From NCBI RefSeq assembly GCF_014279975.1, contig NZ_CP047936.1, positions 372,001 through 436,000 of the forward strand: a stretch of DNA of 64,000 nucleotides, written 5' to 3'. The notes below the pieces were generated by a model. It searched no databases and was not told the origin of the DNA. It saw only the letters and a list, made by a program, of their open reading frames with translations. A program made the position numbers and the translations under genes. Below, piece by piece: positions 16,323 through 24,065 of the stretch (position 1 is its first letter; the number at the start of each line of letters is the position of its first letter). The DNA is from Synechococcus sp. BIOS-U3-1 (GTDB lineage Bacteria > Cyanobacteriota > Cyanobacteriia > PCC-6307 > Cyanobiaceae).

Positions 16323-16619
16323 ATGGAGTCCATCGTTCTGGTTCAAGAGCTGGAAGAACGCACGCGTCTGAGTCCTGATCGGGTGGTGAGATTGCACGGG
16401 TTTGTCCTGGATGAGCCATTTGAACTCTTGATCTTTCGTGGCTTCAGCAGCAGTACGACGCATCCAACAGCCTTCGATCCAGATACCTCGGTGCTCCCCG
16501 AGGGCATCCGTCTGGATTGGGCGGAACTGCTTCAGGGTCCATTGAACGCATCTCAGGAGATTGTGCTGGCAGGTCCCATGCAGCCTGATGGATTGTTGAG
16601 TCCGTCGCACTGGGTGTGA
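16323..16619 (+). CDS. Conserved-looking 98-residue protein
   Basis: From the ATG at 16323, immediately after the DUF3177 stop. The frame is open further upstream only because it runs out of phase through that gene. The protein begins MESIVLVQELEERTRLSPDR and contains LHGFVLDEPFELLIFRGFSS, a soluble mixed alpha/beta pattern that I associate with small cyanobacterial and plastid proteins of unknown function. No catalytic residues are evident. Convergent with the tyrosinase-like gene, 31 bases away. Confidence 0.6.
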   Translation: MESIVLVQELEERTRLSPDRVVRLHGFVLDEPFELLIFRGFSSSTTHPTAFDPDTSVLPEGIRLDWAELLQGPLNASQEIVLAGPMQPDGLLSPSHWV

Positions 16620-16650: not shown

Positions 16651-19218
16651 TCAAACTGCCGCCACGGAGGGCTCCGCTGAGCTGAAGTTAAAGCTGATCA
16701 AGAGGTCGTCATAATCGGCATCTCCGCCTCCAAAAATATCTTCCAATCCCAATAGATTTTTACCGAGTTGGTAGAAATGGCTGATGCCGTCTTTATTGGC
16801 GTCGGCAAATCCGAAAAATGTTTGTCCATTGACGATTGCATATGGTGCTAGATAGCCAGTCTCGCCATTGAAGGTGGCGGTTTTGATCGAAGCTTCGTCT
16901 GAGTCAGTCGTCAGACCAGTCAATGAATCGAAAATATTGTTATCTCGCAGGGCTTCTTTCGCATAGTCCTCATCACCTGGAGACAGCAGTCTGCCGTTTT
17001 TCGCTTCGACGGTTCCGGTCAAGTCAAGAACGCTGAAGAACCCAACAGTGGGTGCATAGTCTGCATCGCGACCAATGACGATGTCAGCTGTCATTGACTC
17101 ATCCGAGCCCAGAGCGCTGAAATTAAATACGGGTGAGTTGGCATTGCTGTCGAGCCAGTTTTTTGCTGACAATTCTTGTGCGTCGCCCAGTGCAAGTCCA
17201 GCTCTCTGGCCGAAATCCAAATAGTTGGTAATGGCTTCATATGGTGATGCGCTGATGCCGTCGTTAATCAATTCCGGATTGGTTGTGAGATAACGCATTC
17301 CCACGGCTGCGGCCCTGAAGTTCACAAACGGCGTGATCTCGCCTGTTGTGCGGTTCGTATTGAAAAATGCTTCTGGGTCACTAAGCGCCACTGAGTCGGA
17401 GAGGAGATTTGGGTTGCCGGCGAGATAGGCCGCGTCGTCGAATGTGCCGCCGTTGGAATTGATTGTTTTGAGGTTTTGATTGATCGTGGTAGTGAGTTGA
17501 CTTAACGTTAAGTCATTTGCTGTAGAGCTAATAATAATTCCTGGTTGTTCGCCTCCATAAGTAGATAAATAGTTGTTGAGTTGCTCCCTGGCCGCGCCGC
17601 CCCTCTCGGTTAATTTCTGATTGATAGCTGCTGCGATATCAAAAGAGATGCTTGCGTCCATGCGCATTTCCGATCCCCCTCCCATTGGGAATGAGCTGAT
17701 GGTTAAGGAGGGTAGGAAGTCGAATTGATCTATTTTCTCCTGACTCGTGAGTTGGCTGATCTGCTCGGCTCCGCCAATAATAATCTTGATTGGTGCTGAG
17801 CTATTCATTTTAATCTTGTAATCCAGGTCGATTTCGATGGATATTGGGTTGATTTTTTTTGTAGTATCTGAAAGGTCTCGAATCTGATCAATGCTCAGTG
17901 GCAGGTTTGTTGTGATCGCTTGAGTGAGTAATTTGTTGTCTTCCAGGGTTGTCAGCGAAATGTTGTTGAGGTTTTTTTGGCTTGCTATTGGGCGGTATGA
18001 GGGTAATTCCAGTAAAAGGGTGGCTGGATTGGGACCTTTTTCTGTGAATTCATCCAGTTGGTCGTAGGTGTAGTTGGGGCTGTAAAGACTGCTCAGAACT
18101 CTGGTTGGATCGGCTCCCCATTGTGAAAAAGTTGTTGAGTCTTCACTTCCACTTGATGACGGCGCAAAAAATTGATAATTCCAGGGATTATTGGTTAATT
18201 CGCTTGTGCTCAAGTAGCTTGCTTTATCAGAAAAATTCCAGTCACTTAGCAGTTTATCAATATAGGAGTGATGGATCCAAAAGATTGGATCAAAGGCAGC
18301 ACCTTCGACGTTATACATAAGCCCAAATGGGAATCCACTCGCATCGGAAGCGCCTAAGGCTTTGGCGGTGTCTTGCAGGGCCAGATTGACATCGTCGTTG
18401 CTGATCGATTCCTGGCCGGATGGCGAGGCCAGGGCTGAGTTCTCGAAAAAGTTGTCATAGGCGCCTCCTAGCGCAACGTGCATCGTGCCATGTGGATTTG
18501 CATTTAAGAGTTCATTGAAGCTTTTAAAGCTAGTTTGTGCTTGTGCAGTATTCAGACCTGTTTGGATGGAATCAAGAACCGTAATTCCTTCACGAATCAG
18601 GATGTTGCTGAGGCTGATTCCTTCATTGATCAGTACGCTGCGACTGGCTTCATGGAGAGGGGATAAGGTGTCGCGAAATGGTTCGGGAATGATGTCTTCC
18701 CCCTGCTTGGTGTACTCCCAGTAGGGAAGTGCCCATGTGTCAGCTCCCTGGATTCCTGCGGCTTGCAGGACTGTGCGTGCAACTTCTTCAAAGCTTTGAA
18801 GATAAAGACGATGCCAGCTTAAAAAATTAATCCCAGAATCATCCTGCCTTGAGATAACAGCTGGTGAGGTGTTCCCATCATCTTGGCCCCATAAATCCCT
18901 AAAGTGAGTGCAATTCATCAGGGCTGTGTTTCCTAGCAGCACGTCGTCTGCGCTTTCGACATAACCATTGGTTGCCGCCCAGGTCGCAAGAGATTGTCTG
19001 TCTGGTTCAAAAGTCCCGTGAATTCCGGCCTGATAATTCCAGCCCAGAGGGTCGCCTGCGTTGTCTGCTGACCGTTGCTTCATCAGCCCAACGGCTGTTT
19101 CGTAAAGCTTGAGGGCTTGTTGTCCTGCTTCTGTCTTGACGTTATGGCGAACGAAACTGGTGTCAAAGGTCTCCATGCTGGCTTCGGAGAATCGTTCCGC
19201 CAGCTGACTGAAAGACAT
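16651..19218 (-). CDS. Tyrosinase/polyphenol oxidase-like copper protein fused to a DUF4114 domain
   Basis: An 855-residue protein. Residues 60-330 form a type-3 copper domain. CuA candidates are His67 (NYQAGIHG), His105 in NCTHF (the Cys103-x-His105 pair resembles the thioether pair of fungal and bacterial tyrosinases) and His136 in FLSWHRLYLQSFE. CuB candidates are His243 and His247 (NPHGTMHVALGG) and the HH pair at 316-317 in DPIFWIHHSYIDKLLSDW. Residues 350-580 are unassigned and beta-rich. Residues 590-700 contain two segments like the AxYLAxNPxL...A..YxxFG repeat of cyanobacterial surface proteins. The end, LGLEDIFGGGDADYDDLLIS, is a DUF4114 signature. No signal peptide is visible. The gene is clearly AT-rich against its neighbours and stands alone, suggesting acquisition. 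Oxidation of phenols is the family role; the substrate is unknown. Confidence 0.85.
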   Translation of the reverse strand: MSFSQLAERFSEASMETFDTSFVRHNVKTEAGQQALKLYETAVGLMKQRSADNAGDPLGWNYQAGIHGTFEPDRQSLATWAATNGYVESADDVLLGNTALMNCTHFRDLWGQDDGNTSPAVISRQDDSGINFLSWHRLYLQSFEEVARTVLQAAGIQGADTWALPYWEYTKQGEDIIPEPFRDTLSPLHEASRSVLINEGISLSNILIREGITVLDSIQTGLNTAQAQTSFKSFNELLNANPHGTMHVALGGAYDNFFENSALASPSGQESISNDDVNLALQDTAKALGASDASGFPFGLMYNVEGAAFDPIFWIHHSYIDKLLSDWNFSDKASYLSTSELTNNPWNYQFFAPSSSGSEDSTTFSQWGADPTRVLSSLYSPNYTYDQLDEFTEKGPNPATLLLELPSYRPIASQKNLNNISLTTLEDNKLLTQAITTNLPLSIDQIRDLSDTTKKINPISIEIDLDYKIKMNSSAPIKIIIGGAEQISQLTSQEKIDQFDFLPSLTISSFPMGGGSEMRMDASISFDIAAAINQKLTERGGAAREQLNNYLSTYGGEQPGIIISSTANDLTLSQLTTTINQNLKTINSNGGTFDDAAYLAGNPNLLSDSVALSDPEAFFNTNRTTGEITPFVNFRAAAVGMRYLTTNPELINDGISASPYEAITNYLDFGQRAGLALGDAQELSAKNWLDSNANSPVFNFSALGSDESMTADIVIGRDADYAPTVGFFSVLDLTGTVEAKNGRLLSPGDEDYAKEALRDNNIFDSLTGLTTDSDEASIKTATFNGETGYLAPYAIVNGQTFFGFADANKDGISHFYQLGKNLLGLEDIFGGGDADYDDLLISFNFSSAEPSVAAV

Positions 19219-19377
19219 TGTGGAATTATCTGATTTCCCTATCTAGCAGTCGTTTCTTGTGCTGTGAACCTGTTTAAACATGAATTGTTTTCCTTTTTGT
19301 TTTGGTGCCTGCGTAGTTATCGATCAGAGGGTTGATATTGCATTGGTTTGCATTAGCAATTTGATGCTTCTGAGGTC
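19219..19377. other. AT-rich intergenic region upstream of the tyrosinase-like gene
   Basis: 159 bases between the tyrosinase-like start and the ileS stop. It is T-rich and probably contains the promoter of the tyrosinase-like gene, but I see no clear -35/-10 pair or operator. No gene, RNA or repeat is supported. Confidence 0.4.
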
Positions 19378-22287
19378 TCAGATCCTGGCCAGAACGCCGA
19401 TGCAGCGCCCACAGAGTGCTGGATGCTGGCTGTGCTGCCCGATATCACCCTCGTAATGCCAGCAGCGTTCGCACTTGATTCCACGGGCTCTGCTGACCTC
19501 GATGATCGCGGTGTCGTCCGTCTGGGTGGCCAGGAGTTCGGCCCAGGGCTCTCCCCCTAATTGCAGCTGGGACACCAACAGCCAGTCACGCAGACCATCC
19601 GCTTCCGTGTCTCCGTTCTCGTTCAACCAGTAGAGAGCCGCTTGCAGTTCGGGATTTCGGGTTTCGATCCTTACCGCTGCTTCAAGCGATGCCCCGAGTT
19701 CCTGTTGGCTTCGGCACTCCTCCAGAACTTTGTTCACAGCAGCACGTAATTCGCGCAACCTCTGAATCGGTTCGCTGAGGGTCGGATCGCGCCAGTCGGT
19801 CGGAACGTTCGGCCAGCCGCGGTTGAAAATTGATCTTTCCTCCACCGCGTAGGGGAGGTTTTGCCAGATGTCTTCCGCCATGTGGCAAAGCACCGGAGCG
19901 ATCATTCCTGCCAGGCGTTCGATGATCAGCGACATCACGGTTTGGCAGCTTCGCCGTCGGCGGTCTGCGGGAGCGCTCACATAGAGCCTGTCCTTAGCGA
20001 TGTCGAGATAAAAGTTCGACAGGTCGGTCACGCAGAAGTTCTGCAGTAACTGGAAGAAGCGGAAGAACTCGTAGCTCTCGAAGGCTGCTGTGATCTCATC
20101 CATCACCTCTGCAGTGCGCTGGAGCATCCAGCGGTCCAGCAACGGCAGCTCCGCCACAGGAACGGCGTCGTCGGTTGGGTTGAAGTCGTGGAGGTTGCCC
20201 AGCAGGTAGCGGCTGGTGTTGCGCACCTTGCGGTAGACATCGGCGAGCTGGCGAAGGATGCCAGAACCGATCGGCACATCAGCGGAGTAGTCAACCGAGC
20301 TCACCCATAGGCGCAGCACATCAGCGCCGTAGGCAGGCTCCTGCTTCTGGTTCTTGCCGCCCTCGATGATCACCATCGGGTCGACAACGTTGCCCAATGA
20401 TTTGCTCATCTTGCGACCTTTCTCATCCAGGGCGAAACCGTGGGTGAGTACTCGCTGGTACGGGGCATGACCATTCACGGCAACCGACGTGAGCAGTGAG
20501 CTCTGGAACCAGCCGCGATGTTGGTCGGAGCCCTCCAGGTACAGATCGGCGGGATAGCTAAGGCCCTCTTTCTGGCTGGACACTGCGGCCCAGCTGGAGC
20601 CGGAGTCGAACCACACATCCATGGTGTCGCTGCCTTTGCGCCACTGCTCAGCCTGATCGGCATAGGCGGGCGGTAGTAGATCAGCTTCGTCCTTTTCCCA
20701 CCACACATCGGCGCCGTGTTCGGCGATCAGCGCTTCGATATGCGCGAGCGTGTCGGCGTTGAGCAGTACGTCGCCTCCACTGCGGTTGTAGAAGACGGGG
20801 ATCGGCACACCCCAGGTTCGCTGACGTGAGATGCACCAGTCACCCCGTTCCTTCACCATCGCTTCGATACGGTTTCGACCTGAAGCTGGAGTCCACTCGA
20901 CTTGATCGATGGCATCGAGGGCCTGCTGGCGGAAGCCGTCGACGGAGGCGAACCACTGTTCGGTTGCACGGAAGATCGTGGGCTTTTTCGTGCGCCAGTC
21001 ATAGGGGTAGCGGTGTCCGTAGGCCTCCTGCTTCAGCAGTGCCCCTGCCGTCTCGAGTGCTTCGATGATGACTGGGTTGGCGTCCTTCAGGACGTTGAGA
21101 CCGGCGAAGGGGCCCGCCTCCTGGGTGAGCGTGCCGGCTTCGTCGACAGGACACAGAACAGGCAGGCCGTTTTTCTGGCCTGTATAAAAGTCGTCGACTC
21201 CATGGCCTGGGGCCGTGTGCACCAAGCCTGTGCCTGATTCAGTGGTGATGTAGTCACCGCCGATCACAACGGGGCTTGTGCGGTCCAGTAAGGGATGGCG
21301 GTATGTCAGTCCAGCGAGCAGCGATCCCTTCACCGTGGCTTTGCGGACGAGTGGTCGTTCGAGCGTTCTGGCAAGGGAGTCGATGAGGTCGGCGGCAACC
21401 ACAAGCAGCCGCCCCTGGCCATCGTCGACGAGGGCATACTCCAGGCGTTCATTGACGGAGACCGCCAGGTTGGCCGGAATCGTCCAGGGGGTTGTGGTCC
21501 AGATCGCCACCTGAAGTGTCTTCCCGAGTGCGTCGGAATTACTTGGCAATGCGATGCCCTCTGTGCTGAGGGCGTCGCGCAGCAGCGCAGGTACTTCAAC
21601 CGCAGGGAAGGCGACGTAAATGCTGGGGCTGGTGTGGCCATCGGGGTACTCGAGCTCTGCCTCCGCTAGTGCTGTCTGCGAGCTGGGGCTCCAATGAACC
21701 GGTTTGAGACCTCTATAGATGTGCCCTTTAAGCACCATCTCGCCGAAGACCTTGATCTGGGCCGCTTCGTAGGTCTTCTGAAGGGTGAGGTAAGGCTCTT
21801 GCCAGTCGGCCCAGATGCCCCAGCGCTGAAACCCTTTCATCTGGCTGTCCACCTGCTTGCGGGCGTAGGCAGCGGCTTTTTTGCGCAGTTTGATCGGGGT
21901 GAGCGTTTGGCGCTGATCCTGATCCATCGACTGCAGCACTTTCAGTTCGATCGGCAGGCCATGGCAGTCCCAGCCAGGGATATAACGAACCTTGCGTCCT
22001 CGCAGGATCTGATATTTGTTGATCACATCCTTGAGAACCTTGTTCAAGGCATGGCCCATATGCAGGGGGCCATTGGCGTAGGGCGGACCGTCGTGCAGTG
22101 TGAAGATCGGACCTGAATTGTCCAGGCCCAGCTTCAGGTCAATTCCGTTGTCGGCCCAGAAAGACTGCAGCTCTGGTTCCCGCTGTACGGCATTCGCGCG
22201 CATCCCGAAGCTGGTCTGCAGCAGGTTGAGCGTGTCCTTGTAGGAGGGACGTCCTTCGGCGTTGGCGTCGCGCGTCTCCTTGCTCAC
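19378..22287 (-). CDS. ileS: Isoleucyl-tRNA synthetase
   Basis: Charges tRNA-Ile with isoleucine. The 969-residue class I enzyme has the HIGH-type motif as HMGH at residues 76-79 ([17 protein letters not shown]), the editing-domain segment [16 protein letters not shown], the KMSKS loop ([14 protein letters not shown]) and a C-terminal zinc finger ([12 protein letters not shown] and CGRC). Length and order fit bacterial type 1 IleRS. It is transcribed towards the tyrosinase-like gene; a Ycf66-like gene lies 22 bases upstream on the same strand. Confidence 0.97.
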
Positions 22288-22849: not shown

Positions 22850-22900
22850 GGCATCCGCATGTCTGAGTGCATTCTGGTTCTCTGCCTAGAGTTGCAACTT

Positions 22901-22982
22901 GCCCATCTGGCGGAATTGGTAGACGCGCTGGTTTTAGGTACCAGTGGCTTCGGTCGTGGGGGTTCAAGTCCCCCGGTGGGCA
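22901..22982 (+). tRNA. tRNA-Leu (anticodon UAG)
   Basis: An 82-nt class II tRNA. The acceptor arms GCCCATC and GGTGGGC pair (one G-U), discriminator A; D-arm TGGCGGAATTGGTAGACGC; anticodon stem CTGGT/ACCAG around loop TTTAGGT with anticodon TAG; a long variable arm (TGGCTTCGGTCGTG region); T-arm GGGGGTTCAAGTCCCCC. No CCA is encoded. It reads CUA-family leucine codons. It sits between the Ycf66-like gene and crtR. Confidence 0.95.
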
Positions 22983-23036
22983 TCCGTTTCCCTAATTTGG
23001 TTTCACTTACTGCGGTTAGCCAATCACCCCTCGTTG

Positions 23037-24065
23037 ATGACACAGGCTTTCGTACAACCTGCAACGCAAGGCGCCGAGACTCGCTTGCGCTCTGTGCCGA
23101 GGGAGTTCCTGGCACCGCCTGCAGCGTTGAACCTCACTCTTGGGTTGTTCATTGGTGGTTATGTGCTGGCCGCACTGACCATCTGGGGCTGGTTTTCAGC
23201 GGGTTGGCCCCTGCCGGTGCTGTTGGCCACGGGCTTTCTGGCTTTGCACCTGGAAGGCACTGTTATTCATGACGCCTGCCATAAATCAGCACATCCGGTT
23301 CCCTGGATTAATCAGGCCATGGGGCATGGCTCAGCACTGTTGCTTGGCTTCAGCTTTCCTGTTTTTACTAGGGTTCATCTCGAGCATCACGCTCATGTGA
23401 ATGATCCCAAAAATGATCCAGATCACATCGTGAGCACTTTCGGACCTCTTTGGTTAATTGCTCCCAGGTTCTTCTATCACGAGTGGTTTTTCTTCCAGCG
23501 CAGGTTGTGGAAGCGCTGGGAATTGATGCAGTGGGGTCTCGAGCGCAGCGTGTTTCTGGTCATCGTGCTTGCTGCGGTCAAATTTCAGTTTCTCCCCTTC
23601 ATTTTCAACTGCTGGTTTGCTCCAGCTCTAATGGTGGGAGTGACTCTGGGCTTGTTTTTTGATTATTTGCCTCACCGACCTTTTACGTCTCGTAACCGCT
23701 GGAAGAACTCAAGGATCTATCCGGGGCGAATGATGAATTGGTTGATCATGGGTCAGAACTATCACTTAATCCATCACCTCTGGCCTTCTATCCCCTGGTT
23801 TGATTACAAACCTGCCTATGAGGCCACAAAACCTTTACTTGATTCCAAAGGCTCTCCTCAGCGCTTGGGAATTTTTGAAACGCGCCGCGATGGATACAAT
23901 TTTCTCTACGACATTCTTGTTGGTGTCCGCAGTCACAAACGCCGTAGGGGAAAAATGCGTCGCGTTGCCAGATTCATGCCTTTGCGGCGATTGCAGCGAT
24001 CCTGGCTTGGATTTGTCAACCAGATTGCGATCAAAACCGAGCCGAGGCGTTCGTCTACTCGCTGA
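23037..24065 (+). CDS. crtR: Beta-carotene hydroxylase CrtR
   Basis: Membrane di-iron hydroxylase that adds the ring hydroxyls giving zeaxanthin (and cryptoxanthin), the main photoprotective xanthophyll of marine Synechococcus. From the ATG at 23037 the protein has 342 residues. The frame is open into the tRNA upstream, so that ATG is preferred. His clusters are HDACHKSAH, HLEHHAHVND and NYHLIHHLWPSIPW, set among three or four hydrophobic segments. The C-terminal tail is strongly basic. Convergent with gatC. Confidence 0.92.
   Translation: MTQAFVQPATQGAETRLRSVPREFLAPPAALNLTLGLFIGGYVLAALTIWGWFSAGWPLPVLLATGFLALHLEGTVIHDACHKSAHPVPWINQAMGHGSALLLGFSFPVFTRVHLEHHAHVNDPKNDPDHIVSTFGPLWLIAPRFFYHEWFFFQRRLWKRWELMQWGLERSVFLVIVLAAVKFQFLPFIFNCWFAPALMVGVTLGLFFDYLPHRPFTSRNRWKNSRIYPGRMMNWLIMGQNYHLIHHLWPSIPWFDYKPAYEATKPLLDSKGSPQRLGIFETRRDGYNFLYDILVGVRSHKRRRGKMRRVARFMPLRRLQRSWLGFVNQIAIKTEPRRSSTR

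Follow-up and report, generated by a model that had tools for sequence, protein, structure and literature searches.

A probably acquired single gene beside ileS in Synechococcus sp. BIOS-U3-1, predicted to encode a secreted, latent catechol-oxidase-like protein with a split CuA motif

How did a lone AT-rich gene come to lie between two housekeeping genes of a marine Synechococcus, and what might its product do? The locus lies in a window of 64,000 nucleotides (C1:372001-436000), the whole stretch of DNA that was analysed, within a 2.71 Mb genome assembled as a single contig. According to the list of open reading frames, the AT-rich stretch is one intact reading frame of 855 codons on the minus strand (16651-19218), and its product meets the definition of the tyrosinase or type-III copper superfamily, with a PF00264 match of 81.6 bits against a gathering cut-off of 22.6 and a C-terminal DUF4114 match of 28.2 bits against a cut-off of 27. 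On its left is a plus-strand gene for a 98-residue DUF7734 protein (16323-16619; PF24869, 59.7 bits), found in 27 of the 31 genomes of the genus, and on its right, on the minus strand, the gene that we take to be ileS (19378-22287), a conserved neighbour in relatives; there the two are arranged tail to tail. Overall, we believe it probable that the gene was acquired horizontally as a single gene, with homologous recombination as the most likely route, and that it specifies a latent, catechol-oxidase-like enzyme predicted to leave the cell by type I secretion.

Composition and gene order at the insertion site

The sequence-only reading of this locus had proposed a recent acquisition on the strength of an AT-rich gene in a GC-rich chromosome, and its two 60-base counts, 35% GC at 17521 and 60% at 20521, are exact. 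The local dip is real, in that the lowest-GC 2.6-kb stretch of the window starts at 16751 (47.5%, against a window mean of 57.6%), and the 5' spacer of the gene is AT-rich as well (39% GC, 19219-19377). The value of 35% does not hold for the gene, however, which has a GC content of 48.1% over 16651-19218 and in which only 6% of the 60-mers are at or below 35%. A second dip (51% GC at 23001-24000) covers a 373-codon reading frame on the plus strand (22944-24065) near the tRNA-Leu at 22900, with histidine motifs that are presumably desaturase-like. Scans of the locus found fewer promoter-like matches than expected from shuffled sequence, and terminator-like matches within the shuffle expectation.

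Against a 400-kb sample of the organism's own chromosome, with a mean GC content of about 54.3%, the composition of the gene is low yet ordinary. GC content is equal to or lower than that of the gene in 120 of 700 overlapping windows of 2568 bp (17%), and among the 216 reading frames of at least 200 codons in the sample, 17 have lower GC, 28 have lower GC3 and 23 have a worse codon-usage score. The comparison of codon usage that the earlier reading had called for, in which a profile matching the chromosome would speak against acquisition, thus gave half such a match, with usage inside the genome's range. In addition, four homologues in three other genomes are themselves AT-rich relative to their flanks (GC fractions of 0.493 against 0.628, 0.438 against 0.534, 0.502 against 0.599 and 0.503 against 0.567), so part of the bias belongs to the gene family. 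Because equally AT-rich windows are common in the genome and the homologues elsewhere are AT-rich too, we reject composition as proof of transfer.

The AT-rich letters, then, are weak evidence for transfer, and the strong evidence is absence from relatives. The site could be read in 26 relatives (of the 31 genus genomes, the four lacking a DUF7734 match, G015, G017, G021 and G026, are all incomplete), and the tyrosinase-family gene is absent from it in all 26. The stop codons of the DUF7734 gene and ileS lie between -23 and +27 bp apart in 24 of these 26 relatives, against 2758 bp here. Presence of the gene at this site in all close relatives, which would have spoken against acquisition, is clearly not what we found, and the claim of acquisition survives on this ground rather than on the compositional one on which it was first made. 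Inserts of unrelated content occupy the same gap in G001 (1698 bp, 41% GC, L126:4842-6539) and G023 (509 bp, 49% GC, L127:3391-3899). Since the reading frames scanned from both inserts gave no family matches, the three uses of the gap differ in content, and these inserts also fit a tail-to-tail gap that serves as a permissive slot.

The tails of both neighbours bear on how the gene arrived. Over its first 70 aligned codons, the DUF7734 gene is 83-90% identical to the nearest clade (L024-L029), which bounds the word "recent" without dating the event: the acquisition is later than the split from this nearest sampled clade. Its last 24 codons (16545-16616, plus strand), by comparison, are only 47-52% identical to the same clade at the nucleotide level, within which this tail is 80-88% identical in the two internal pairs compared; the best match is to clade L032-L034, at 64-67%. 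On the other side, the last seven codons of ileS (19381-19401, minus strand) are 38-48% identical to the organism's own clade and 62-71% identical to L032-L034, so that left and right ends both lean to the same clade. This suggests an exchange through homologous flanks, with a tract running from inside the DUF7734 gene to inside ileS. Because the tails are short, we infer this step rather than observe it; the match to L032-L034 is only 62-71% over 72 and 21 bases, the donor is not among the sampled genomes, and tails of this kind might also arise without recombination, through rapid drift or an artefact at the junction.

Homologues and the mode of transfer

Full-length homologues are found in three of the 31 genus genomes, this one included; the other two (G023 and G017) are 36-38% identical. 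The G023 gene lies elsewhere, flanked by genes for an amine oxidase and an SDR, and the G017 gene lies among other neighbours again; the closest homologue locus with a named host is that of Synechococcus sp. AG-679-A04 (L076), whose protein is identical to that of G017. G069, of a neighbouring genus, has two copies, both without the C-terminal module. More widely, residues 1-439 as a query match four of 399 genomes of the order, one of them weakly, and PF00264 is present in 14 of 386 cyanobacterial genomes. In a planctomycete metagenome-assembled genome (L077:87-3191), a tyrosinase with the same split CuA motif and methionine-rich loop follows a fibronectin type III (fn3) domain; it is 26-32% identical and lacks the C-terminal module. 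In a tree of 21 catalytic domains, the window protein, G023, G017, the two G069 copies and L077 fall together at 95/98, with the window protein joined to its two genus-mates at only 82/90, and the more distant cyanobacterial sequence L098 (G728) stands outside these six on a long branch. No account of a picocyanobacterial tyrosinase was recognised in the literature searched.

The neighbours in relatives, which vary by genome, hint at aromatic substrates: among them are an amine oxidase, a TPP enzyme, an amidohydrolase and a protein resembling tyrosine decarboxylase. In G069 (L125:8487-13266), the gene after the second tyrosinase copy is AT-rich and encodes a tyrosine-decarboxylase-like protein with EF-hand motifs (TIGR03811 at 370 bits, under the cut-off); the two may form an aromatic cassette. 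Directly downstream of the first copy (L124:7278-8586) lies a pair of AT-rich genes of cupin-like type, one of them matching Cupin_2 weakly. The gene in the window stands alone, with no such partner. The possibility that a tyrosine decarboxylase gene came in together with the oxidase gene, on the pattern of G069, was set aside, as the genome gave only a 24-bit partial match.

The locus has none of the marks of a genomic island or mobile element. No integrase was recognised among the reading frames of the window, three of which were scanned with Pfam; no inverted repeat pairs the two ends of the insert, the end repeats are unconvincing, the one direct repeat (75%) being confined to the right side, and no tRNA is adjacent, the nearest being the one at 22900, 3.5 kb away. 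Of the two routes that the earlier reading had offered, a lost vehicle or homologous exchange at the flanks, the second is therefore favoured by the mosaic ends of both neighbours and the lack of convincing flanking repeats. A phage or plasmid vehicle was rejected: a search of 50,697 phage records found no relative, the 38 stretches in viral contigs that fit the pattern include none, and the plasmid matches listed are generic tyrosinases at 24-27% identity, none covering 80% of the query.

Two other histories have to be weighed against recombination between picocyanobacteria. If a phage or mobile element, since lost, had carried the gene in from a distant, AT-rich organism, this would account for the AT-richness of the gene relative to the window and for a planctomycete with the same architecture; we nonetheless regard it as improbable, given that the phage, viral and plasmid searches yielded no relatives beyond those generic plasmid tyrosinases, that the insert has neither end repeats nor a tRNA closer than 3.5 kb, and that the nearest homologues are picocyanobacterial. 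Even less credible, indeed very improbable in our judgement, is an old vertical gene, ancestral and cleanly lost in nearly all relatives, that has become AT-rich through weak expression and light selection. GC content and codon usage inside the genome's range are what such a gene would show, and the presence of family members in several picocyanobacteria, with the 82/90 grouping of this sequence with two genus-mates, is also in keeping with it. It would require, however, many independent losses, so exact that the two stop codons again abut or overlap in 24 of the 26 relatives; the copy in G023, besides, lies at a different site. The locus illustrates clearly that composition can be a weak clue where the order of genes and the mosaic tails of the neighbours are strong ones.

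The copper site, the lid and the predicted activity

The surprise at this locus is not AT-richness but the pairing of a split CuA motif, conserved in the family, with a tail of the export type. Alignment, an AF2 model and structural matches together place a catalytic four-helix domain at about residues 20-390 (18049-19161, minus strand), and all 21 aligned sequences share its H67, C103, H105, H136, H243, H247, H316 and H317 without exception. Six of these are the copper-ligand histidines (H67, H105, H136, H243, H247 and H316), and H317 is a seventh invariant histidine. Because the five-member family has no invariant histidine or cysteine other than these eight residues, H105 is the sole candidate for HisA2. 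C103 lies two residues before it, in the Cys-X-His arrangement known for thioether bridges. The CuB half of the site is conventional, with H243-X3-H247-X68-H316 conforming to H-X3-H-Xn-H. The CuA half reads H-X37-H-X30-H, departing from the canonical H-Xn-H-X8-H given in PMC11608171, with 30 residues (106-135; 18814-18903, minus strand) in place of the usual eight between HisA2 and HisA3.

This split is a family trait. From HisA2 to HisA3 the spacing is 31 here; it ranges from 25 to 33 in seven of the 21 aligned sequences, counting this one, and is 9 in the remaining 14. Besides the window protein, the long form occurs in five relatives built alike and in a cyanobacterial sequence further removed. 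A survey of 17 cyanobacterial loci, 11 of which could be parsed, gave a spacing of 9 in five and a long spacing in five, namely this gene twice, the two G069 copies and one from G728, with L147 lacking a WHR match; the remaining six (L148, L149, L151, L152, L158 and L159) went unrecognised by the pattern and are uncounted. A conserved family with 27-32 residues between these ligands would test how fixed the geometry of the type-III copper site is.

Structural comparison agrees with the polyphenol oxidase (PPO) catalytic fold. The AF2 model has a mean pLDDT of 56 over the whole protein, and of 65 with a pTM of 0.75 over residues 1-590; the ligand-carrying helices are mostly at 80-98 and the remainder is poor. 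Its matches to PPOs have Z scores of 22-25, including the tyrosinases of Hahella (8b74; Z 25.3, 371 aligned residues, about 24% identity) and Ralstonia (7xio; Z 22.9, about 20% identity over the aligned residues). The MelC2 profile (NF047834) scores 36.9 bits against a curated cut-off of 450. An alignment with latent aurone synthase (4z11; Z 24.1, rmsd 3.7, 388 residues) that runs through residue 584 supports, at low model confidence, a C-terminal lid-like beta-sandwich domain of the latent-PPO type at about residues 430-584 (17467-17931, minus strand), in which pLDDT is about 45-72 over most of the domain and lowest (39) in a loop. In that loop, FPMGGGSEMRM at residues 510-520 (17659-17691, minus strand), M512 and M518 do not vary among five family members, and six sequences have three to six methionines there; its pLDDT is below 50 in both AF2 models (residues 501-519), so its position over the copper site is unreliable. 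Beyond the predicted lid are two family-conserved repeats of the NP(D/N/E)L type (residues 594-680; 17179-17439, minus strand), which matched no named family in the Pfam scan.

The activity can be predicted in outline. The position of the water-keeper residue, Glu in 18 of the 21 aligned sequences, is N239 here, and the residue after HisB1 is G244, so that the protein has neither the Glu nor, after HisB1, the Asn or Asp associated with monophenolase function. With Gly after HisB1 and no water-keeper Glu, diphenolase activity is likelier than the hydroxylation of tyrosine, and we expect a catechol oxidase. Such residues are linked to weak monophenolase activity in PMC8049008, which also describes the HisB1+1 rule as not absolute and some residue rules as unreliable predictors of activity.

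Predicted export and comparison with known systems

The C-terminal module (residues 690-855, including DUF4114; 16654-17151, minus strand) is likely a secretion or surface module. Residues of about 690-850 have matches in 13 of the 31 genus genomes, at the ends of large RTX/cadherin-like and other proteins, one of which shows RTX-like repeats by eye. We therefore take the module as a shared domain and a putative secretion signal. The protein has no hydrophobic N-terminus, its 855 residues include a lone cysteine, and acidic residues outnumber basic ones by 110 to 49; the Pfam scan found no RTX nonapeptide repeats (PF00353) in it. In the genome, TIGR01846 picks out an HlyB-type exporter at 729.4 bits (cut-off 725.6), beside an HlyD-type adaptor (174.1 bits, below the curated cut-off of 208.65) and RTX proteins; its position, C1:99-104 kb, is unlinked to that of the gene at 389 kb. 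From these features, type I secretion is predicted as the likely way out. In the same genome (L144:4488-7299), two tandem, near-identical 427-residue RTX-repeat proteins are encoded beside an HlyB/HlyD-type exporter.

Two doubts about function deserve weight. That the protein does not use type I secretion, and stays inside or leaves by another route, we hold to be unlikely, though less so than any other alternative considered here: it has no RTX repeats of its own, the exporter is unlinked and some family members do without the C-terminal module, set against an N-terminus unlike a signal peptide, a single cysteine, an acidic composition, a C-terminal module shared with RTX-type proteins and an exporter in the genome. 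Decidedly unlikely is that it is no oxidase in practice, being instead a secreted copper- or oxygen-binding (hemocyanin-like) protein or a degenerate enzyme. The split CuA motif and missing water-keeper Glu would suit such a protein, and hemocyanins do top the sequence searches; this rank is due, however, to the many repeated units in each hemocyanin chain, the best structural matches are PPOs, and all six ligands are kept in family members that are only 36-38% identical.

The general pathway that we favour, from acquisition to a secreted oxidase, can thus be proposed. For example, consider an ancestor of this strain that took up DNA from another picocyanobacterium in which a single type-III copper oxidase gene had already been inserted between the two tail-to-tail housekeeping genes. 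Homologous recombination would have brought in the insert, and the exchanged tract would have included the 3' ends of both neighbours. The C-terminal module would then send the unfolded, nearly cysteine-free, acidic protein through a type I secretion system, and outside the cell it would fold, take up copper and oxidise o-diphenols to quinones. Six histidines would hold the two coppers, the cysteine two residues before HisA2 may form a Cys-His thioether, and the C-terminal lid would cover the site, making the product a latent phenol oxidase. If this is true, open-ocean cyanobacteria that secrete a phenol oxidase would open a new outlet in seawater for copper and quinone chemistry.

A broader reading is speculative and, taken jointly, rather unlikely. 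It would make the protein part of a distinct split-CuA oxidase branch, with members in a handful of marine picocyanobacteria and in a planctomycete, and with about 16-24 extra loop residues between two copper ligands. The methionine-rich lid loop would take up Cu(I) and pass it to the site after unfolded export, and the single-gene cassette would spread between strains in the tail-to-tail gap beside ileS. In that event, a phenol oxidase would load its own copper outside the cell, and quinones would be made at the cyanobacterial surface.

Among known systems, the Streptomyces-type short tyrosinases (MelC2, NF047834, which is not known to have a lid) and the o-aminophenol oxidases (9t62) are weak matches, mainly in the CuB region; the loop insertions described for the latter in PMC12982950 are located elsewhere than the one here. 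The long bacterial tyrosinases of Hahella and Ralstonia have the same two domains as are modelled here and are among the best structural matches, and the thioether bond is absent from the Hahella crystal according to PMC11609597; general bacterial tyrosinases, unlike the window protein, have a spacing of 9 in all 14 rows aligned. The latent plant-type PPOs (aurone synthase 4z11, tomato PPO 6hqi and apple MdPPO1 6els) share the four-helix domain, the six histidines and the cysteine of the Cys-His thioether type, and have the C-terminal lid that is predicted here. The window protein differs from them in having 30 residues, not eight, between HisA2 and HisA3, a methionine-containing lid loop, no water-keeper Glu, extra repeats and a C-terminal export-type module. 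As for the event itself, the gain of genes in picocyanobacterial genomic islands, as PMC7522525 presents it, likewise brought accessory genes into a Synechococcus lineage, there as islands of gained genes and here as a single gene between housekeeping genes. In this context, the event, acquisition of a single gene, is of an ordinary kind, and what it introduced is an unusual representative of an enzyme superfamily already known.
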